Shown here in pieces: positions 3,619-31,778 of a stretch of 46,588 nucleotides of DNA (position 1 is the first letter of the stretch; each line of letters begins with the position of its first letter). This stretch comes from a virus, in the IMG/VR virus record IMGVR_UViG_3300047462_000092, positions 1 to 46,588 of that record; one strand, 5' to 3'. The translations under genes were made by a program, and so were the position numbers. The notes beneath the pieces were generated by a model, which was given only the letters and a program-made list of their open reading frames with translations, was not told the DNA's origin and searched no databases.

Positions 3619-3927
3619 ATGCGGTCTGAGCGGGCACGCCCGGCAAGCCTTGGGCCGGACTTCTTGGCCGCAGTGCTCCGACTGTGGGTTCTCACAAAAC
3701 GCGATCTCGTACTTGCAGCCGCACGGTTCCGTGCGGCTTTCTTTTTTGCGCAGACTGCAAGGCGGCCAGAGCGGCTTGTACTTCCGCTCCTGCCGCCGGT
3801 AGACCCACTTCCCTGCGGCACAGTCCGTCCTCTCGAACACAAAGCCGATGATGTTCGGCGGTTCGGGGAGCTGGGCCGGGATCAGCAGGTTCCCGTTGCT
3901 GTCCCAATCAATCGGTAGTCTATTCAA
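3598..3927 (-). CDS. Cysteine-rich hypothetical protein
   Basis: 109 residues, last gene of the long leftward block. The start is a TTG at 3927 that overlaps the end of the upstream gene; GGGAG nine bases upstream supports it. No family recognised. The C-terminal half has seven cysteines, including CGCKYE, a C..P..C pattern and CRACP, so it may bind zinc. It is convergent with the exonuclease gene (21-base overlap) and contains that operon's terminator. A + strand frame also crosses this segment but lacks a ribosome site and has the composition of a shadow. Confidence 0.6.
   Translation of the reverse strand: MNRLPIDWDSNGNLLIPAQLPEPPNIIGFVFERTDCAAGKWVYRRQERKYKPLWPPCSLRKKESRTEPCGCKYEIAFCENPQSEHCGQEVRPKACRACPLRPHLEEVDA
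3717..3747 (+). terminator. Rho-independent terminator of the replication operon
   Basis: Perfect 8-bp stem AGCCGCAC (3717-3724) / GTGCGGCT (3731-3738), loop GGTTCC that can add two more pairs, then TTCTTTTTT. It lies 99 bases after the exonuclease stop and inside the opposite-strand gene at 3598-3927, so it also encodes part of that protein. Confidence 0.88.
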
Positions 3928-4567
3928 TGATGTACGCTCCCGACTGCAAATCCTGAGCGCTAATTGGGAAGCCGCTTGGGCATCCCTGGAAATCGACAGG
4001 GATCGCTTCTAATTGTGCCTGAGTACAGGTGCCGCCCACAGCAGACATCGGCTGGCAGGTAAGGTATCCGGTGCTTGATAGGACGATCGCCCAATTCGCC
4101 GGTGGCCCAACATACTGCACGCCGGTCTGAACGTAGAGTGGAACCGTATGGCCAGCCTCGATCTGCCCGTTATAGGAGAAAGCGTCGCCCAAGCCCGCGC
4201 AGATTTGGGGACACGTTTTCTGGTTCTTGTTGTTGCCTCCGCCACCCCCGCCGCCTCCGCCACCCCCGCCACCCCCGCCGCCTCCGCCGCTGCCTTTGCA
4301 GTTGCACCAGACTTGGCCGAGGGCGGTGGTGATCTCGTCCAGGATCGCCTGTGACCAGAGCGTCAACGGTTCCTGGAACTCGATGCTTGGGCAGGTGGCC
4401 GACAACGTGCTCCGTACCGCCTTCACGTCATCGACGCTCCAGATGTGCGGGGCCGTCACCTTTTGGAGCGGCTGCACACTGGGGCACCCACTCGGCGGGT
4501 TCTCGATCGCGTTGTTGACGTTCTGGATGACTTGGTTCCAGTCAGCCAGCGTATACGGCGAAGGCAT
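3920..4567 (-). CDS. Hypothetical protein with long polyglycine linker
   Basis: 215 residues. Two cysteine-bearing halves are joined by a run of 18 glycines (about residues 94-111). The glycine codons are mixed (GGC, GGA, GGG, GGT), which argues for selection on the protein rather than recent slippage. The N-terminal part looks helical, the C-terminal part beta-rich (VPLYVQTGVQYVG). Position just downstream of tail tip and SPFH genes suggests a late structural or surface protein, but no family is recognised. Confidence 0.7.
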   Translation of the reverse strand: MPSPYTLADWNQVIQNVNNAIENPPSGCPSVQPLQKVTAPHIWSVDDVKAVRSTLSATCPSIEFQEPLTLWSQAILDEITTALGQVWCNCKGSGGGGGGGGGGGGGGGGGGNNKNQKTCPQICAGLGDAFSYNGQIEAGHTVPLYVQTGVQYVGPPANWAIVLSSTGYLTCQPMSAVGGTCTQAQLEAIPVDFQGCPSGFPISAQDLQSGAYIIE

Positions 4568-4570
4568 TGC

Positions 4571-5134
4571 TTAGACTCCCATGATCGGATGGTGAGCAGG
4601 CCCCACCTCGTTACCGATCAGCTTGTAGACCTTGCAGGTCGAGAAGTCGGTGACGGCGCACCGCTGCACCGCGACGCCGAACTGGCGGAGCCGCTTGCGG
4701 CAGGCCGCCGTGAGCTTCTTCTCGATGCTCCCAGAAATATCCGTCAGCAGATCGTCGAGCTTGCTCTTGCTGATGACCTCGACTATCGCGGCCTGCGTGA
4801 TGTCGCTCACAGTGGTATCGACATCCCAATTCCGCTTGCCGATGGCCTCAACGATGTCGTTGATCCGGTAAACCACCAAGGTGCCCACAACGATCTGCTG
4901 ACGGTCAGAAGTCATCAGCACTTGGGTTGGCAGATTAAGGGTCTGCCGTGCCGTGACGATAATGCTGATCTCCGTCGTCAGGGGCCAGTACCAGTGAAGG
5001 CCCGGCCCCATCGGACGAACATCTTTACCGCGACGCCATTTAACGCCTTGCTGTGTGGCGCAAACGATGCACATGCGAGGCACGAGCTTGCCAAACGCTT
5101 GAACGATGTCGGCGATCCACGAGAAGGCTTCCAT
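4571..5134 (-). CDS. SPFH/band-7 domain protein (stomatin/prohibitin-like)
   Basis: 187 residues. From about residue 40 the sequence follows the SPFH domain: GPGLHWYWPL, a beta strand with TARQTLNLPTQ, then the signature-like MTSDRQQIVVGTLVVYRI, then a helical AAIVEVISKSKLDDLL. The N-terminus (AFSWIADIVQAFGKLVPRMCIVC) is a weak amphipathic or membrane-touching helix. SPFH proteins form membrane-associated rings or scaffolds in cells; I do not know of a standard role in tail operons. It lies 12 bases below the tail tip gene and is co-directional with it. The C-terminal coiled coil usual in cellular members is short here. Confidence 0.72.
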   Translation of the reverse strand: MEAFSWIADIVQAFGKLVPRMCIVCATQQGVKWRRGKDVRPMGPGLHWYWPLTTEISIIVTARQTLNLPTQVLMTSDRQQIVVGTLVVYRINDIVEAIGKRNWDVDTTVSDITQAAIVEVISKSKLDDLLTDISGSIEKKLTAACRKRLRQFGVAVQRCAVTDFSTCKVYKLIGNEVGPAHHPIMGV

Positions 5135-23180: not shown

Positions 23181-24617
23181 TTAGCCGAGCAGCACGACGC
23201 CGAGGTTCTGGTCGAGCTGAGCGACGCCCGCCAGGATGTCGAGCACGACGATCGTGCCCTGGTTCTGGATGCTGTATTGCATCGTGACGCGCATGGCCAC
23301 GTCGTTGTGGACGCCCACGTCGGCCATGACCCCCATGCGGCTGTTGGGCAGCGCCAAGGGGCGAGTGACCAGAGCGACGGCCTCGCGGTGGAACGCGAAG
23401 TTGTAGCTGCCAACCGGGCCGGGGAAGCCGGGGTCCGCGGTGTTGATGGCGTTGTCCAGCGGACGGTCCAGCAACAGCGCCTGGTTCCCGCTGACGTTCG
23501 GATCGGGCCGCGAGCTGATGATGACGTAGGTCGCACGCGGGCTGGTGCCCCACGCGATGAGCTGGCCGACCTGCGGAGGCGAGCCGGAGGTGAATCCGCT
23601 GACCGAGATTTCCTTCGCGTAGCCCGCGGCGTAGGTCACGTAGCTCGCAACCGGCTTGTAGTAGGTCACGGCGGCGCTGGCCGCGGTGGCGTTGGCGTTG
23701 GCCTCGTTCAAGGTGAACGCCGTGGTGTTGCCGGTCGTCTCGGTGTGGGCCGTGACGTAGGTCGGCTGGTTGTTGCCGGCCACGACGGCGAAGGCACCCG
23801 TCACCCACGCGCCGGTGATTCCGGTCACGGCCTGCGAGCCACCGGCCCCGGCCGCCAGAGCGTTGGTCACGACGCCGGCCCCGCCGTTCGCGCCCGAGGG
23901 CGTGTCGCCGGAGCTGATGAACGGCACGTTCTGATCCATATAGGTGTTGAACCCAAGGATGCGTCCGAGGGTCGCGTTCTCCAACGCGGTGCCGCCGTCG
24001 CCACGCTCGTTGGCCTTCACGAAGATCGGCGTGTTGAGGAACGCGGTTTCCGAACCCGGCGACAGAACCAGGTTGCGGTTCTGCATGTACGCCTTGTTCT
24101 GGTTGAGGATTTGCCGCGCCTGCAACCCGTAGGTCTGGGCGTTGCTGGAGTTCAGGTTGTTGAGCTGGCCCGAACGGCCGTTGGGACCGCCGAGGAACGC
24201 CGGGATGACACCCGTGACGGCGCGATCGACCGAGCGAGCGATCGACTGCATACCGGGCAACAGGTAGATGTCCACGAGTTCCTGGAACGACTGGCTGGCC
24301 TCGCCGTCGTTGATGGTGAACGAGCAGTAGAAGTGCTGGTTCAACGGAACCTGCACGTTCGTGCTCACGGCGTCCTGGTTGACCACCGTGTCGGTGTCCG
24401 TCTTGCGCATCGGGATGAACGCGCCGGGCCGGCGGGTGTTCACGACATCGCCGAACTCGCGGACCTGGTTCTCGAAGTCACGGTGGACCAAGTTGGCGAA
24501 CACCATGTTCTCTTCGAGGATCACCAGACCTTCCATCGCCCACACTTCGGGGATGAAGGCCGAGTTGTTGTTGCTGTAGCACGCCAACATGGCGGCTGCG
24601 AGGTAAAGGGGATTCAT
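23181..24617 (-). CDS. Major capsid protein (P22 coat-like)
   Basis: 478 residues. Segments such as VNTRRPGAFIPMR, VPLNQHFYCSFTINDGE, SQSFQELVDIYLLPGMQSIARSVDRAV and GFNTYMDQNVP match what I expect for P22-type HK97-fold coat proteins. A region at ~250-350, rich in Gly, Ala and Thr (TAHTETTGNTTAFTLNEAN), looks like an inserted beta domain comparable to the P22 I-domain. A strong ribosome site (AAAGGAAAAG) precedes ATG 24617. The scaffold gene lies just upstream and a stable hairpin just downstream, both usual for a coat gene. Confidence in capsid identity is high, in the P22 subfamily moderate. Confidence 0.8.
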   Translation of the reverse strand: MNPLYLAAAMLACYSNNNSAFIPEVWAMEGLVILEENMVFANLVHRDFENQVREFGDVVNTRRPGAFIPMRKTDTDTVVNQDAVSTNVQVPLNQHFYCSFTINDGEASQSFQELVDIYLLPGMQSIARSVDRAVTGVIPAFLGGPNGRSGQLNNLNSSNAQTYGLQARQILNQNKAYMQNRNLVLSPGSETAFLNTPIFVKANERGDGGTALENATLGRILGFNTYMDQNVPFISSGDTPSGANGGAGVVTNALAAGAGGSQAVTGITGAWVTGAFAVVAGNNQPTYVTAHTETTGNTTAFTLNEANANATAASAAVTYYKPVASYVTYAAGYAKEISVSGFTSGSPPQVGQLIAWGTSPRATYVIISSRPDPNVSGNQALLLDRPLDNAINTADPGFPGPVGSYNFAFHREAVALVTRPLALPNSRMGVMADVGVHNDVAMRVTMQYSIQNQGTIVVLDILAGVAQLDQNLGVVLLG

Positions 24618-24648: not shown

Positions 24649-24684
24649 GAAGTAACTGGTTCGTGACCAGCTACTTCGCTGGTC
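24649..24684 (-). promoter_or_regulatory. Mutually exclusive hairpins in the capsid leader
   Basis: Read on the minus strand: GACCAG, an 8-base loop CGAAGTAG, CTGGTC (24684-24665) forms one hairpin. The right arm can instead join an 11-bp hairpin with a 5-base CACGA loop: AAGTAGCTGGT / ACCAGTTACTT, one G-T wobble (24675-24665 with 24660-24650). The two structures exclude each other, as in an attenuator. It lies between the scaffold stop and capsid ATG. Confidence 0.45.
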
Positions 24685-25562: not shown

Positions 25563-25579
25563 GACGGGGAAATCTCCAA

Positions 25580-25668
25580 CCCTGCCTGATGAGGTGAACG
25601 TGCTGACGCAGGTTTCAGCACCCTCTCGCCCTGCCTAGAAGTGCGACTAGCCGACGCAGGTTTCGGCT
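25580..25668 (-). ncRNA. Tandem structured RNA element (possible H-type pseudoknots) before scaffold gene
   Basis: Two copies ~48 bases apart. Minus-strand reading of copy B (25668-25649) is AGCCGA-AACCTGCG-TCGGCT; copy A (25620-25601) is TGCTGA-AACCTGCG-TCAGCA. The 8-base loops are identical, whereas the 6-bp stems differ at two positions with compensating changes. Each hairpin is followed after 12-13 bases by AGGCAGGG (25636-25629 and 25587-25580), whose GCAGG can pair with loop CCTGC to make a pseudoknot. The element lies 18 bases from the scaffold ATG. A translation control role is inference. Confidence 0.6.
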
Positions 25669-25703: not shown

Positions 25704-26297
25704 TCAGGAGACGCGGCTTAGCTTCACCGCTTGATCGTCACGCAAGAATGGTCGCAGGATGCGCCATGCGATGGCGCTAGGGACCAAGTTGACGATATGC
25801 TCGACGGGCACGTGTGTCCGGGAATAAGACGTGCGTACCGACGAGTAACCGTGGCTCTCGACTCCGAGATTCTCCAATTCGATCTCAGGGTCTTTTCCAT
25901 CGAGCAACGAGTATGCGATTTCATAGCATGCTCGCACGATGTCATCGGGAACTGCCGTGTCCGTCCCACGAGGGAACTCATGGACTTGGGCGGCTTCCGC
26001 GGCATAGACTTGGGCCGGCGTCGGAAGCTGGATCGCGATGTCCGGGCCGATCTGTACGGCCGGCTGGATGTTGGTCGTGACCATATCCAGCGTTGGGATC
26101 GGATTGTAGGTGCTGAGCAACGCCCAAGTCGAAGCCTTGTAGCCTTTGAACGCGAGGCTGTCGATCGTGCGTGTGGCCGCAAGCAAAGCGGCTTGCTGCT
26201 GAGTGGGCGATGCGTTCACCCACGCATAGTTGTGCAGCTTGTTCTGGAAGTAGGTGTTGGCGTCGTCCAGGCTGCCGTATGTGGTGTAGTCGATCAC
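25704..26297 (-). CDS. Head-tail connector / DnaT-like phage protein
   Basis: 197 residues. The start YGSLDDANTYFQNKL then QAALLAATRTIDSLAFKGYKAS fits the phage protein family often named DnaT-like, usually found among head completion genes. Later, PDDIVRACYEIAYSLLDG is the helical pair seen in adaptor proteins. It overlaps the next upstream gene by four bases. A role in joining portal and tail is inferred from family and position. Confidence 0.62.
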   Translation of the reverse strand: MIDYTTYGSLDDANTYFQNKLHNYAWVNASPTQQQAALLAATRTIDSLAFKGYKASTWALLSTYNPIPTLDMVTTNIQPAVQIGPDIAIQLPTPAQVYAAEAAQVHEFPRGTDTAVPDDIVRACYEIAYSLLDGKDPEIELENLGVESHGYSSVRTSYSRTHVPVEHIVNLVPSAIAWRILRPFLRDDQAVKLSRVS

Positions 26298-26596
26298 GAC
26301 GGATACCTTTGCCGCACTGCGGCGATTTGAGCGTCAATCGCCGCAAGTGGTGCGGGGTTTCCATGCCGGGCCAGGTACAACGCTTCGAGGTGGGCTTGCA
26401 CGTCGGGGTAGGCTTGGTATCGCCACTGATTCGGGTCCGGGGCCGGAGGCGGATCGGCTGGCTCCGGCGTGTTGCCCGCGGCCAGCCATGCTTGGTAATC
26501 GTTCCAGTCACAATTGCCCGGCACGGGTGGGATGAACGCACCATCGGTGAGACGTTGCACGCCGCCATTTGCTTGGACCTTGTAGCCAGTGCTCAT
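26294..26596 (-). CDS. Small protein with tail-fibre-assembly-like start
   Basis: 100 residues. N-terminus VQRLTDGAFIPPVPGNCDWNDYQAW then NTPEPADPP matches the short phage proteins that carry DGA.IP...N.DW..Y..W, often found with fibre genes. C-terminal half is helical (VQAHLEALYLARHG). Overlaps the fibre gene upstream and the connector gene downstream by four bases each. Confidence 0.58.
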   Translation of the reverse strand: MSTGYKVQANGGVQRLTDGAFIPPVPGNCDWNDYQAWLAAGNTPEPADPPPAPDPNQWRYQAYPDVQAHLEALYLARHGNPAPLAAIDAQIAAVRQRYPS

Positions 26597-27666
26597 AGTT
26601 CAGCCGAAATCCAGAGTCGTGCCGTGTCCGTGTTGTAACTCTCGATTACGCACGCCTGGCCAGGAGTTAGCGGAGTCGAGGGGGTGCCCTCAATAGCCCA
26701 CGATGTCAAGGTTCCTGCGCCCACTGCCGACATTGCTGTTGATACTTGGCCATTCGTGGCTACGTTCATGTAGTAGTTCCCTGCCGGATCAGGAAACGTT
26801 ACGGTTGGGATAGTCCGCTTTGAAGCGAAACGGGCAAATGCGATACCGACATAGTTTGGTGCGCCGCCGCTTACCCAGCCACCAGTTGCGAGCGGCCCAT
26901 AGCCGGAGCCTGCGACGATTGACTCGAAATACCGTTGGCACAGTGCCAGCTCTATTGCGTATGGCCGGTACTCGAACTGTGTGGCGTTTGAGCCTTGCTC
27001 GAATTGGACGTGAGCAATGTCGATCGTGAAGCCGCTGTTGATCGGGAATAGGAACAGGACACTAATCCAGTCATCACCGTTTGTTCCGAGCGTCTTACCT
27101 GAGATGCTGGGGATCGAGAACGTGGCCGTAAACTTCTGCCACGATGTCGTCAATGAGAAGGATTGTGCTCCGCCAGCAAGCCCTATATCAGCCGAGGATG
27201 GGCTTCCGCCGCTGCCGTAGTAGCGGTCGAGCCTGACGCTTAGCGTCCGACTCGTATCGGCCTTCGCCCAGAAGCTAACCGTAGCTGTTTGACCAGAAAA
27301 TGTGAAACAGCTTTCGATTCGCTGGTCTAAGGCGAGGACGGTTTGCCCTGTGGCGGCTATGCTGACGCTCGCTTCCAAGTAGTACAAAGGATTATCCGGC
27401 ACGCTCGTCTGGCCAGGAGAGAATGACATCCTCTCGATGCTCAGGTTCGTGCCAGTCCCATCAAAGTCTGCTCGCCACTGGTCTGGGTAATAGGTGCTCG
27501 TTGTCGTGATCGTGCTGAGTGCCGTGCCACGCTGCCAAATGTTGAAGTTGCCGTTCAACACCCGGTTCTTGTGCATGAAGTACGGGATGCCAATGTTGGC
27601 ATAGTCCGCGGCTTGGAGCTGCTGGAGCTGCCCCGCATTGAGCACTACAGGTTGCCGCTGCGACAT
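26593..27666 (-). CDS. Fibre-like virion protein with carbohydrate-binding-type domain
   Basis: 357 residues. The start GQLQQLQAADY matches the N-terminal segment of the 161-residue protein at 8418. NRVLNGNFNIWQRGT followed by YYPDQWRADF is typical for phage fibre proteins with a CBM4/9-like jelly roll. A WAKADTSRTLSVRLDRYYG strand and FEQGSNATQFEYRPYAIELALCQRYF follow, the latter a frequent signature in such proteins. Excellent ribosome site GGAGGT. It is unusual that it lies inside the head module, between the decoration and connector genes. Receptor or polysaccharide binding is inferred. Confidence 0.66.
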   Translation of the reverse strand: MSQRQPVVLNAGQLQQLQAADYANIGIPYFMHKNRVLNGNFNIWQRGTALSTITTTSTYYPDQWRADFDGTGTNLSIERMSFSPGQTSVPDNPLYYLEASVSIAATGQTVLALDQRIESCFTFSGQTATVSFWAKADTSRTLSVRLDRYYGSGGSPSSADIGLAGGAQSFSLTTSWQKFTATFSIPSISGKTLGTNGDDWISVLFLFPINSGFTIDIAHVQFEQGSNATQFEYRPYAIELALCQRYFESIVAGSGYGPLATGGWVSGGAPNYVGIAFARFASKRTIPTVTFPDPAGNYYMNVATNGQVSTAMSAVGAGTLTSWAIEGTPSTPLTPGQACVIESYNTDTARLWISAEL

Positions 27667-27678
27667 CGGACACCTCCG

Positions 27679-27999
27679 CTAGACAGAAATCCAGCTCACC
27701 ACCTGGCCGGCGGCTGACCCGATCACGTAGATCGAAGTCAGGTCATAGACCTTCAGTTCCAGTTCCGCGCCGGGGGCCAGCTCGTAGCCGTTGTTCGCCG
27801 TGACATTCAAGTCTCCGACGTACACCTTGCCGGTGTTCGCCGCCAGGGGCTTGATCTTGACGTACTTCGCGGCATACTGGCCGGTAACGTGAGAGAGCGG
27901 TACGGCTGTCTCTCCGGCCGTCACCTGTCCGTAGAGGAAATTGCCCAGCGACTCTTCCGAGATGCTGTGCGGATGCTGCATGTTACGGTTCGTCGCCAT
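27679..27999 (-). CDS. Small capsid decoration-like protein
   Basis: 106-residue beta-rich protein. VTAGETAVPLSH, KYVKIKPLAANTGKVYVGDLN, YELAPGAELELKVYDL and SIYVIGS form alternating strands as in small virion decoration proteins. The ATG overlaps the portal stop (TAATG). Function is inferred from size, strands and position near the portal. Confidence 0.55.
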   Translation of the reverse strand: MATNRNMQHPHSISEESLGNFLYGQVTAGETAVPLSHVTGQYAAKYVKIKPLAANTGKVYVGDLNVTANNGYELAPGAELELKVYDLTSIYVIGSAAGQVVSWISV

Positions 28000-30086
28000 T
28001 ACTTTGGCCCTTTCTTGATTCGCTTGCCTTTGCCGCGAACCCTCTTGCCTGTGGTGATGACGTTCGGACTGCGGCTGGCAGCCTTCTCTTTCTTGCCCGC
28101 ATTCGGGTCCGCCGAGAAGTCTTTCAAGCCACGAGCCCGTGGGTCATTTCCGGTGGTGCCTTGCTGCTCGATCGCGAGGGGGTCCACGTTCTTTGGTCGT
28201 GGCGGATTGCTCAGATCGACAGCGTTGCGGGCACCAGGGTCACTGGCGTTGCTGTTACCCAGGCCGATGGTCGCGAGGGGATCGGACTCGCCTGGAACGG
28301 TTTCGGTCGGCCCTTGAGCACCGGCAGTCGTGCCCTGCGTCGGGCCGTAGCCATCTTGCCCATCTCGCAGATCGGGGCCATAAGTGTCTTGCCACGGGTT
28401 GATCGGCGGAGACTGGCCGGGCGATGGGGCACCGAAGCCCGGCACCTTGTATGGCGTCTGGGCGAGCATGATGCGTTGCAGCCGTGCGGCATGATCGTTG
28501 CGGGCTACTAGGTACTCGTCTTCGTCGAAGCCGAGGGCCATCGCAGCCGCTTGATCGCCTATGATGCCTTCCGTGCGAGCCTGGATGATGGTATTCGGGT
28601 CGCTCGTGGTATAGTCGGCCTCGTCGATCTCGTCGTAGATCGTGTCGAGAACATCGACGCCAATCTTGCCGCCGAGCAAGGTCGAAACCATCGCCTTTGC
28701 CAGCTCTCGCTTAACGGTCTGGCCAGGGATTGCGCTGACCAGTTCCGCCAGCGCTTGCGATTCGTTGATACGAGCCTGCTCGCTCTTGATCGAGTAGGTT
28801 TCCGGGTACTTGACGACCGGAATTTGTTTGGTTTGCGGATTAACGCTTTCGTAGTCCGCCCAGAACTCACCGATCCGTCGTTCGCCGTTCTCCAGCGTCA
28901 GGCCAATGAAGCTGAGGCCCGATTCGAGATCGCCGCCCGTCGCACTTTGCTGCTGACCGAGGTTCTGTACGGCCAGGTTGACCAGCCGGCGGATGTCGTC
29001 TTGCAGCTTTTCGGCGAGCTTCATCGACGCCATGAGCGGTTCGCTCGGCGGGGCGATGAATGCAGGAGGGTTGGCCTTGATGTCGTAGTAACGACCCTGC
29101 GTCACGCCGACTTTGACTTCATTCGTCTCGGCACCTTGTCCGCCAGTCGTGGCCGAGCCATCAGGTGCCGCGGATTGTTTCAGGTGGGAGCGGGCACCAC
29201 CACGCAAGTCGCTCTGCTCGATGTAGAACGGGAAGTTCGACTTCAGAGCGTAGGCTACGTCGCTCGACAGCAGATTCATCAAGGCGATCTGATGACCAGC
29301 CACGTCTTTGATGAGACTATCGCCGATGTCAAGCACGACGAACGGAATGCGATGCAGCTTCAGGACGGTTGGCCCTGAAATGAGGTTGCCCTCCGCGTCT
29401 ACTTCGTCGCCTTTGAGATTGTAAAACTGGCAGTTGACGTAGCCCGTATCCTGGTCGATCCAGAGCCGGCGGAATCGCTCGAACGTCTGCAACGGCAGGA
29501 GCGTGCGGCGATCGTAGTCAACGACCGTATCCCGGAGCAGGAGGCTCTGAAACTCGGAGGGTGCCTCCGGCTTCGAGCAGGCCCAGCTCAGGATGTCTTC
29601 CGTCTGGTACAGGTACAGGTAAGGACGAGCGCCGTTCAGTGCGGCCTTGGTCTCACCGTTGACCTTGGGCATATCGACATAGACGCCGACCTTGCCCATA
29701 ACTAGCAGCTCGGTCAGCACCTTGTAGCCCATGAAGTAATTCATGGACGAGCCGCGGAGATCGACACCCATGTCGAGCCCAGCAACCGCTCGCATAAAGG
29801 CACTGCTTCCGTCGCGGCGCACGATGTCGCGCATCCGCTGGAAGATGCCGTTGCGAATCTCGTTGATCGCGGACTTCGCGAAGCTCGGCGTCGGCGTGAT
29901 CCGCTTCCGCTCGTTGAACTCGTTGATGTTCTCGCGGTTGCTGAACCGTTCGAGATACTTGTTGCGGAACTCCGGGCCGCCACGATAAGTCAATCGCCAA
30001 AGTTCCCAGTCTGTCATCGTTGACAGAAAATTCGGGTGGCGACTGTCGATTATGCGCGCCGGTTGTACAATTGCTGGCAGACTCAT
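27999..30086 (-). CDS. Portal protein
   Basis: 695 residues; follows the large terminase gene, the expected place. A helical N-terminus with RLTYRGGPEFRNKYLERFSNRE, then AINEIRNGIFQRM, then YLYLYQTEDILSW, matches portal proteins of the DUF4055-like class. The middle carries a helical stem-like part (LMASMKLAEKLQDDIRRLVNLA) and the C-terminal 120 residues are disordered and Pro/Gly-rich, ending very basic (RVRGKGKRIKKG). It would form the 12-mer through which DNA enters. Ribosome site GGGGAGGT is six bases before the ATG. Confidence 0.82.
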   Translation of the reverse strand: MSLPAIVQPARIIDSRHPNFLSTMTDWELWRLTYRGGPEFRNKYLERFSNRENINEFNERKRITPTPSFAKSAINEIRNGIFQRMRDIVRRDGSSAFMRAVAGLDMGVDLRGSSMNYFMGYKVLTELLVMGKVGVYVDMPKVNGETKAALNGARPYLYLYQTEDILSWACSKPEAPSEFQSLLLRDTVVDYDRRTLLPLQTFERFRRLWIDQDTGYVNCQFYNLKGDEVDAEGNLISGPTVLKLHRIPFVVLDIGDSLIKDVAGHQIALMNLLSSDVAYALKSNFPFYIEQSDLRGGARSHLKQSAAPDGSATTGGQGAETNEVKVGVTQGRYYDIKANPPAFIAPPSEPLMASMKLAEKLQDDIRRLVNLAVQNLGQQQSATGGDLESGLSFIGLTLENGERRIGEFWADYESVNPQTKQIPVVKYPETYSIKSEQARINESQALAELVSAIPGQTVKRELAKAMVSTLLGGKIGVDVLDTIYDEIDEADYTTSDPNTIIQARTEGIIGDQAAAMALGFDEDEYLVARNDHAARLQRIMLAQTPYKVPGFGAPSPGQSPPINPWQDTYGPDLRDGQDGYGPTQGTTAGAQGPTETVPGESDPLATIGLGNSNASDPGARNAVDLSNPPRPKNVDPLAIEQQGTTGNDPRARGLKDFSADPNAGKKEKAASRSPNVITTGKRVRGKGKRIKKGPK

Positions 30087-30110: not shown

Positions 30111-31778
30111 TTACCAGAACGATTGAATGCTTCGGCCGGTGACTTGCGCGGCCGCGAGTGGCAGAGCGATCTCGCTATATACCGAAGAATGAGCGAAGTG
30201 GTCAGGACCGGTTTCCTTGTAGGTGGCAACCGGGTTGCCGTTTTCGTCTTCGACATACGTCCGAATCGGTGACTTAATGTGCTCGCGGTATTCGAGCGAT
30301 ACGTCTTGCGGCAGCAGTATGCGACCAGGCGTCCTATATCGGCCGAGGGCACACGAGAGCCAGTTCGTTCGATCGACGGTGGCCATCGGAGCGCCGGTAT
30401 CTTCGTCCGTGATCGCGATTTCCTTGGCCACTTGGCCACGTCTGTAACGGCACAGCCAGACGAAGCCAGGAAAGCGCCGAGCGAAGGCGCGGGCCTCGTT
30501 GATTTGCGGATCAGCGTCGATGACGGCGGCCCGCACCTGCCACGTGTGCATCAGCTCGTCGAGCAGATGCCATTCATCTTCGAGGAATTTCAGCTCGAAG
30601 AGGATTTTCTTGACGGCGACCGCATGGATGTCATGCGTGTACTCGACGTTGAACCATTCGGCGATTTCGGCGTAGCACCATTTACCCTGGTCCACACCCA
30701 TCGTGATTAGGCGTCGCCCATCAGTCGGCGGCATGTCCGCTTTTGAATGTTTGCTGATCGCCTTGTCGATCTGTTCGTCCGAGACTTGGGCACCGTGGCC
30801 GACGAATGGCAGCCCAAGCTTCGACTTGTGGAACTCGTGATTGGCGGCCTCGTCACCGAAGCCGCGGAAGTGTGCGACAACGATCTCGCCTGGTGTGACG
30901 GTGTAGCTGTAAAGCTGGTTGACGTAGAACCCGCGGCAGTCGGGATTGGAATTCGGCGCTGTCGGCTGGAAAAACCCGTCCGATAGGAACTCCGGCTTGG
31001 CCTTGTGCTCCAGGCGATGCTTGCATTCCCTGCATTTCAGGAAGGACTCGTGGCAGCGAGGATCGTTGACCGCTTCGCCGATGATCTCGACGCAATCAGG
31101 CCATACAAGCTCTGTGTGGCGTGAACAATGTGGGCAGACGAAGAAGAAGTGTTCTTGCGTCGTGCCGAGGTAGAGCTTATGGATGCCCTGATTAGGGATG
31201 GTCGGAGTGCTGAGGCCCCACACCGTCTTGTGCAGTTGGCCAGAGAGACGTTCCAAGGCCAACCAAATCTGGGCCTCGTCCATCTCGTCCACTTCGTCCA
31301 GGATCAGGTCCGAGACGGGGATGGACTTCAGGTTGCTGTCGCCGCGACTACCGCTGATGTACAGGTTGCAAGTGCCGGCCTGCTTCAAGTTCACCGTGTT
31401 CGTGTCGGTGAAGATCGAGGCCAGGTACGGGCTGTGCTTGAGCGCCGTTGCAAATCGCGTCTTCGAGAACTTGGTAGCGTTCAGTGCGGTCGGCAAGACG
31501 TAGAGCACATCTCGCTTGAGCACGTCGATCACGTAGAACGCACGGTTGATTGCAACTTCGGTGAGGCCGATCTGGGCGGCCTTCATCGAATAGTTGAACG
31601 ATGCCTGCGAATCAAGAATCTCCCGTACCCACGGGTGATACTTCCACGAGTAGGGGCCTGGGAATGGCTCGCCCATCACTCGTCGATTCGCCGACCAACG
31701 CGAGCAGCTCGTCAGCGTCCGGCCTTTTAGACCAGACACGAGGCTGTTAACGAAATCGTTGACAAGGGCGTCACTCAT
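30111..31778 (-). CDS. terL: Large terminase subunit (lambda gpA-like)
   Basis: 555 residues. Walker A-like KAAQIGLTE (residues 66-74), Walker B LILDEVDEMD (158-167), a motif III-like VWGLSTPT (186-193), and a zinc-knuckle type pair CPHC (215-218) and CRECK (249-253), as in gpA-type terminases. The nuclease part starts with TMGVDQGKW (359-367; the Asp as first metal ligand) and has VIDADP (418-423). The enzyme pumps DNA into the head and cuts it. No obvious small subunit is adjacent; the candidate is the first gene of the block, 6 kb upstream. Confidence 0.9.
   Translation of the reverse strand: MSDALVNDFVNSLVSGLKGRTLTSCSRWSANRRVMGEPFPGPYSWKYHPWVREILDSQASFNYSMKAAQIGLTEVAINRAFYVIDVLKRDVLYVLPTALNATKFSKTRFATALKHSPYLASIFTDTNTVNLKQAGTCNLYISGSRGDSNLKSIPVSDLILDEVDEMDEAQIWLALERLSGQLHKTVWGLSTPTIPNQGIHKLYLGTTQEHFFFVCPHCSRHTELVWPDCVEIIGEAVNDPRCHESFLKCRECKHRLEHKAKPEFLSDGFFQPTAPNSNPDCRGFYVNQLYSYTVTPGEIVVAHFRGFGDEAANHEFHKSKLGLPFVGHGAQVSDEQIDKAISKHSKADMPPTDGRRLITMGVDQGKWCYAEIAEWFNVEYTHDIHAVAVKKILFELKFLEDEWHLLDELMHTWQVRAAVIDADPQINEARAFARRFPGFVWLCRYRRGQVAKEIAITDEDTGAPMATVDRTNWLSCALGRYRTPGRILLPQDVSLEYREHIKSPIRTYVEDENGNPVATYKETGPDHFAHSSVYSEIALPLAAAQVTGRSIQSFW

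Follow-up and report, generated by a model that had tools for sequence, protein, structure and literature searches.

Tandem pseudoknots in the leader of a phage scaffold gene and their probable role in translational control

The gap of 141 nucleotides between the head-tail adaptor and scaffold genes of an IMG/VR virus contig contains, at exactly 25580-25668 of the window (the whole stretch of 46,588 nucleotides analysed here), two copies of a predicted H-type pseudoknot. Since knots of this kind are kept before the scaffold start codon of related phages, and often across the stop codon as well, scaffold translation is probably controlled by RNA structure. Comparison of sequences makes it reasonably probable that a new cis-acting RNA forms the scaffold leader here and that its two pseudoknots gate scaffold translation.

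The head genes of the window, namely terminase, portal, adaptor, scaffold and capsid, are all encoded on the minus strand (Table 1), and the profile matches of the two genes flanking the leader agree with an earlier note on this DNA, which had placed the fold between a connector and a scaffold gene. A tail-fibre-like protein with a carbohydrate-binding domain match is also encoded inside the head cluster, between portal and adaptor (26593-27666).

Table 1. Features of the head gene cluster and positions of the predicted pseudoknots in the window
Feature	Coordinates	Strand	Basis or detail
Terminase gene	30111-31778	minus	
Portal gene	27999-30086	minus	
Head-tail adaptor gene, upstream of leader	25704..26297	minus	phrog_477 E 9.7e-12
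PK1 overall, H-type pseudoknot	25629..25668	minus	sequence; shuffles; two-unit layout also in relatives
PK1 S1	25668-25663 with 25654-25649	minus	AGCCGA/TCGGCT
PK1 loop	25662-25655	minus	AACCTGCG, 8 nt
PK1 S2	25660-25656 with 25634-25630	minus	CCTGC/GCAGG; flanking G 25629
PK2 overall, H-type pseudoknot	25580..25621	minus	sequence; shuffles; unit in 78/102 homologous leaders vs 10/1020 shuffles
PK2 S1	25621-25615 with 25606-25600	minus	GTGCTGA/TCAGCAC
PK2 loop	25614-25607	minus	AACCTGCG, as in PK1
PK2 S2	25612-25608 with 25585-25581	minus	CCTGC/GCAGG; flanking G 25580
Probable Shine-Dalgarno GGAG of scaffold gene, directly 3' of PK2	25574..25577	minus	sequence; relatives have a similar purine-rich site 3' of S2
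Head scaffolding protein gene, 287 aa	24699..25562	minus	phrog_206 E 1.6e-13; viral scaffolding-protein structure matches
PK3, between scaffold stop and capsid start	24650..24684	minus	strict descriptor
PK3 S2	24676-24672 with 24654-24650	minus	AAGTA/TACTT; S1 GACCAG/CTGGTC, loop CGAAGTAG
Major capsid protein gene, downstream of scaffold	23181..24617	minus	PF11651 P22 coat E 5.8e-21; phrog_283

Each leader knot is built from a stem S1 of 6-7 bp and from a second helix, S2, in which GCAGG further downstream pairs with CCTGC of the loop, as the earlier note had proposed for both copies. Its description of a duplicated fold also stands: the two 8-base loops are identical and start 48 bases apart, and the stems differ at two matched positions. 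If the S1 pairs are numbered from the loop outward, pair 3 is C-G in PK1 and U-A in PK2 while pair 6 is A-U in PK1 and U-A in PK2, both changes being compensated. The L3 strands, which run from S1 to GCAGG and are 14 nt long in each copy, have few matching positions, and the parts shared by PK1 and PK2 are therefore the paired parts. S2 of PK2 ends 18 nt before the scaffold ATG, and between them there is only GTTGGAGATTTCCCCGTC.

Among 20,000 dinucleotide shuffles of the window leader, 20 contained at least one match to a strict descriptor of this unit (stem of at least 6 bp, 8-nt loop, 5-bp S2), and none contained two. Across the whole window the descriptor returned PK1, PK2, a third match at 24678 on the minus strand and one on the plus strand. 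Both hairpins are present in the plain minimum-energy fold, the z-score of which is only -1.0 under a fold model without pseudoknots. Searching the window against Rfam 15 gave no family at or above the gathering cut-off, in keeping with the earlier view that the fold belongs to no named RNA class, and among 12 relatives only a tRNA elsewhere reached that cut-off. An intrinsic terminator was considered and rejected, as S1 is followed by AGTCGCAC and GTTCACCT and not directly by a U run.

Relatives were collected by a terminase scan, which gave 68 related contigs, and by capsid and adaptor alignments; from the capsid scans the best 80 of 577 capsid-positive loci were used. Altogether 199 loci with a scaffold gene yielded 117 distinct leaders. 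The loci are metagenomic and represent uncultured phages, some of them closely related. Three of the close matches are loci in Planctomycetota MAGs, and one is in an Anaerolinea MAG; the knot-bearing phages probably infect Planctomycetota. Scans with the scaffold or the capsid as single proteins found no relatives, and a tblastn search of cultured phages gave distant capsid matches only and no scaffold match. A comparable element was not seen in the leaders of P22 and Streptomyces phage Hiyaa. An exact pattern scan of viral contigs with the loop of the window and GGCAGG produced 18 hits, which were nearly all stemless and were judged to be due to chance.

Conservation of the fold does not depend on any one sequence. 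A sequence-free pseudoknot score averages 32.4 in scaffold leaders, against 23.5 in their own shuffles and 24.4 in capsid leaders. A stricter descriptor, in which S2 begins with CC, ends with GG and is followed by G, matches 70 of 99 scaffold leaders, 5.1% of shuffles, 2 of 101 capsid leaders and none of 110 adaptor leaders. When this was refined to A-C...G-G around S2, a signature learned on the very leaders that are counted, matches were found in 78 of 102 distinct scaffold leaders, 10 of 1020 shuffles, none of 103 capsid leaders and 1 of 110 adaptor leaders. Because of this shared origin, independent support comes from the sequence-free score, from the controls with other genes and from a blind-anchor permutation, in which the observed pairing was reached in 0 of 2000 trials. 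The signature occurs at 1.2 per kb in scaffold leaders and 2.5 per kb at the scaffold/capsid junction but at 0.05 per kb elsewhere in the loci, so that scaffold leaders are about 23 times denser in it than the rest.

The refined matches comprise 42 distinct S2 helices. Pair 1 of S2 is always C-G, as the descriptor demands, and pair 2 is mostly C-G, while all four Watson-Crick types occur at pairs 3-6; the invariant nucleotides are few, A-C before S2 and G-G after it. In the stems, 28 G-U pairs were counted against 2 of A-C, as expected of the mRNA strand, although the caller favours G-U and the observation is weak. In one close clade the helices are nearly invariant and a standard covariation count was no better than shuffles. 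MAFFT alignments of three clades misplace the 3' strand of S2, and covariation was therefore judged by descriptors, shuffles and permutations. The earlier note had regarded homologous leaders with neither the stem pairing nor the loop as evidence against its proposal; the pairing is kept in homologous leaders, and the loop sequence common to PK1 and PK2 is not conserved in relatives. As far as sequences can tell, the fold is not private to the window contig but is conserved with many different helices and is absent from the leaders of the neighbouring genes.

The position of the knot is tied to the scaffold gene. From the end of S2 to the scaffold start codon the median distance is 16 nt (quartiles 15-18, with 9-34 allowed), whereas the distance to the adaptor stop codon is variable among relatives, and in nine loci where 0.6-3.2 kb lie between adaptor and scaffold the knot stays with the scaffold. 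A role in scaffold translation, as suggested earlier, is thus supported both by the constant distance from the start codon and by the persistence of the knot where other genes lie in between. The Shine-Dalgarno site often lies within a tiny possible hairpin, GGA..TCC, near the scaffold start codon (for example in L061, L087 and L175).

A second helix with the same flanks is present upstream of the knot in 50 of 76 leaders, compared with 35 of 1520 shuffles, and this upstream unit is itself a pseudoknot in 12 leaders, compared with 1 of 1520 shuffles (as in L113, TGGGCC[AACACGGC]GGCCCA...GCCGTG G). Since relatives share the two-unit plan, the tandem pair of the window is not a private duplication. 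The identity of S2 in PK1 and PK2 is a local feature, because S2 varies freely and units 1 and 2 usually differ in relatives; the identical sequences may be recent. A switch by cross-pairing between PK1 and PK2 is possible in the window but was rejected, as it is not conserved and the two units differ in relatives. In a capsid tree (quick method, root uncertain, labels partly by eye) the tandem form occurs in several clades, and phages without a leader knot, in which the gap is only about 30 nt, form a single supported group among the knot-bearing phages. The existence of this natural clade implies that the element is dispensable. A compact two-unit variant, with S1 of the knot nested in the first helix (ACCGG...CCGGG), was observed in the leaders of L095, L172 and L186.

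The other end of the scaffold gene carries a similar structure. PK3 has the same geometry as the leader knots and lies wholly inside the scaffold-capsid gap of the window, whereas S1 of the junction knot in relatives is inside the scaffold ORF. A pseudoknot overlapping the scaffold stop codon was found in 56 of 104 loci against 24 of 2080 shuffles. Here S1 and the 5' strand of S2 occupy the last scaffold codons, S1 falling in the conserved C-terminal codons E-K-N-P-E-L-L, and the 3' strand of S2 lies just past the stop (examples are L049:14226-14280, L088 and L205). The GGGG of this knot follows the stop codon by a median of 12 nt (quartiles 9-15) but stands at a variable distance from the capsid start (quartiles 57-94). 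In a permutation restricted to synonymous differences, S1 pairing scored 10.4, swaps among phages whose downstream residues are identical gave 7.2, and 0 of 2000 trials reached the observed value; such covariation of synonymous codons points to selection that acts on the RNA as well as on the protein. The stop-codon knot is often present in phages without a leader knot.

Other features were seen in the same gap. L229 has a group I intron between the scaffold and capsid coding sequences (3774-4657, Rfam RF00028), and L065, L067 and L151 have a long scaffold-capsid gap with sequence resembling the core of this intron. The capsid leaders of one clade (L090, L104, L117 and L130) contain an extra hairpin, AAGAAGCCGC...GCGGCTTCTT, with which a TCAAGAA/TTCTTGA pairing may compete.

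In tailed phages, copy number has to increase at the adaptor/scaffold boundary and again at the scaffold/capsid boundary. Since the knots stand at these two successive boundaries, they might act without any ligand, as barriers that protect processed mRNA from decay or stop ribosomes from drifting out of one gene into the next, so that adaptor, scaffold and capsid levels differ. A shape that is kept while its sequence is free to vary fits such a role, and the mRNA of T4 gene 32 is unusually stable too (PMC3014915). Protection from decay, however, would not call for a spacing of 15-18 nt before the scaffold start codon. The stop-codon knot keeps its place relative to the stop and not to the capsid start, and the signature is seldom found in other parts of the loci; we regard the barrier as possible but rather unlikely.

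Other explanations fare considerably worse. A pseudoknot directly before the Shine-Dalgarno site is a common riboswitch layout, but no Rfam riboswitch matched at any threshold tried and the freely varying S1 and S2 leave no conserved pocket, which makes a small-molecule riboswitch very unlikely. Stimulation of frameshifting, for which H-type pseudoknots are the classic elements and for which the stop-codon knot is suitably placed within the coding end of the scaffold, is highly improbable given that none of 83 scaffold genes has an in-frame slippery heptamer upstream of that knot and that the leader knots fall in neither the adaptor nor the scaffold ORF. The presence of two nearly identical inverted repeats of 18 bp, spaced 48 bp apart, could also suggest an element of the DNA, such as a protein-binding repeat or a recombination or packaging site. 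It is the pairing and not the sequence that is conserved between phages, however, the spacing to the start codon is constant and G-U is tolerated in the stems, so that this too seems hardly credible. Least probable of all are chance inverted repeats: the plain fold energy of the leader is ordinary (z -1.0), but shuffles and homologues contradict chance.

We therefore return to translational control, which we infer from the constant spacing at which the knot adjoins the ribosome binding site. The transcribed leader would fold into two adjacent H-type pseudoknots, the last of which would end at about 16 nt from the start codon (18 nt in the window), directly upstream of the Shine-Dalgarno site. 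Placed at the edge of the ribosome landing site, the knot could set the frequency of scaffold initiation through its stability or through a bound partner, and the ratio of scaffold to coat protein would thereby be maintained. The scaffold protein itself would be the likeliest partner, repressing its own synthesis as T4 gp32 does on its own pseudoknot, and the knot over the scaffold stop codon would probably take part in the same control. Autoregulation by scaffold protein binding the knots is plausible; naming scaffold or capsid protein as the ligand is speculative. The few invariant nucleotides would leave little for a sequence-specific binder, which counts against this explanation. The AlphaFold model of the scaffold protein (mean pLDDT 76.5) has a long coiled coil together with a small alpha-beta domain, and a helical hairpin at its C terminus; structure searches with it found no significant solved relative and recognised no RNA-binding fold. 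The middle alpha-beta domain was considered as a double-stranded RNA binding domain on account of a similar layout and was rejected, the best structure match having an E of 0.25.

A more doubtful extension is that matched pseudoknot operators bracket the scaffold gene, double at its start and single over its stop, both read by scaffold or coat protein. If so, translation would receive feedback from capsid assembly at each end of the scaffold cistron, and the knots would represent a new class of phage regulatory RNA. How the proportion of scaffold to coat protein is set after transcription in tailed phages is an old question; dozens of natural variants and one clade without the leader knot make it directly testable.

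Synthesis of the P22 scaffolding protein, the product of gene 8, is autoregulated after transcription, and the likeness to P22 would lie in this control. As a structural precedent P22 does not serve, because 13 nt separate its portal gene from the start of gene 8 and leave no room for such a leader; P22 has none comparable. An H-type pseudoknot in the mRNA leader of one gene is shared with the gene 32 operator of T4, T2 and RB69, the sequence of which diverges between phages while the structure stays similar (PMC3014915, PMC535899). That operator regulates a different gene and has a single knot, which lies about 67 nt upstream and precedes an A+U-rich stretch coated by gp32 (PMC3014915, PMC535899), whereas scaffold leaders usually have two units, the last about 16 nt from the start codon, and lack an A+U-rich stretch running from the pseudoknot through the ribosome binding site. 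The leader of E. coli rpsO (S15) likewise has a pseudoknot in a translational operator under autogenous control (PMC3014915), but of a ribosomal protein gene. Tandem pseudoknots, two in the window leader and with a second pseudoknot unit in some relatives, recall the STAXI motif (RF01728), in which tandem pseudoknots are repeated two or three times, often with UUCG tetraloops, near ssb, integrase, topoisomerase or antirestriction genes (PMC2864571). The scaffold knots, in contrast, adjoin adaptor, scaffold and capsid genes, and the RF01728 model had no match in the window at E<=10. The gene 32 operator is thus nearest in working and STAXI nearest in form, and the scaffold knots belong to neither family; they constitute an unnamed and widespread family of pseudoknots tied to a scaffold gene at its start and stop codons.
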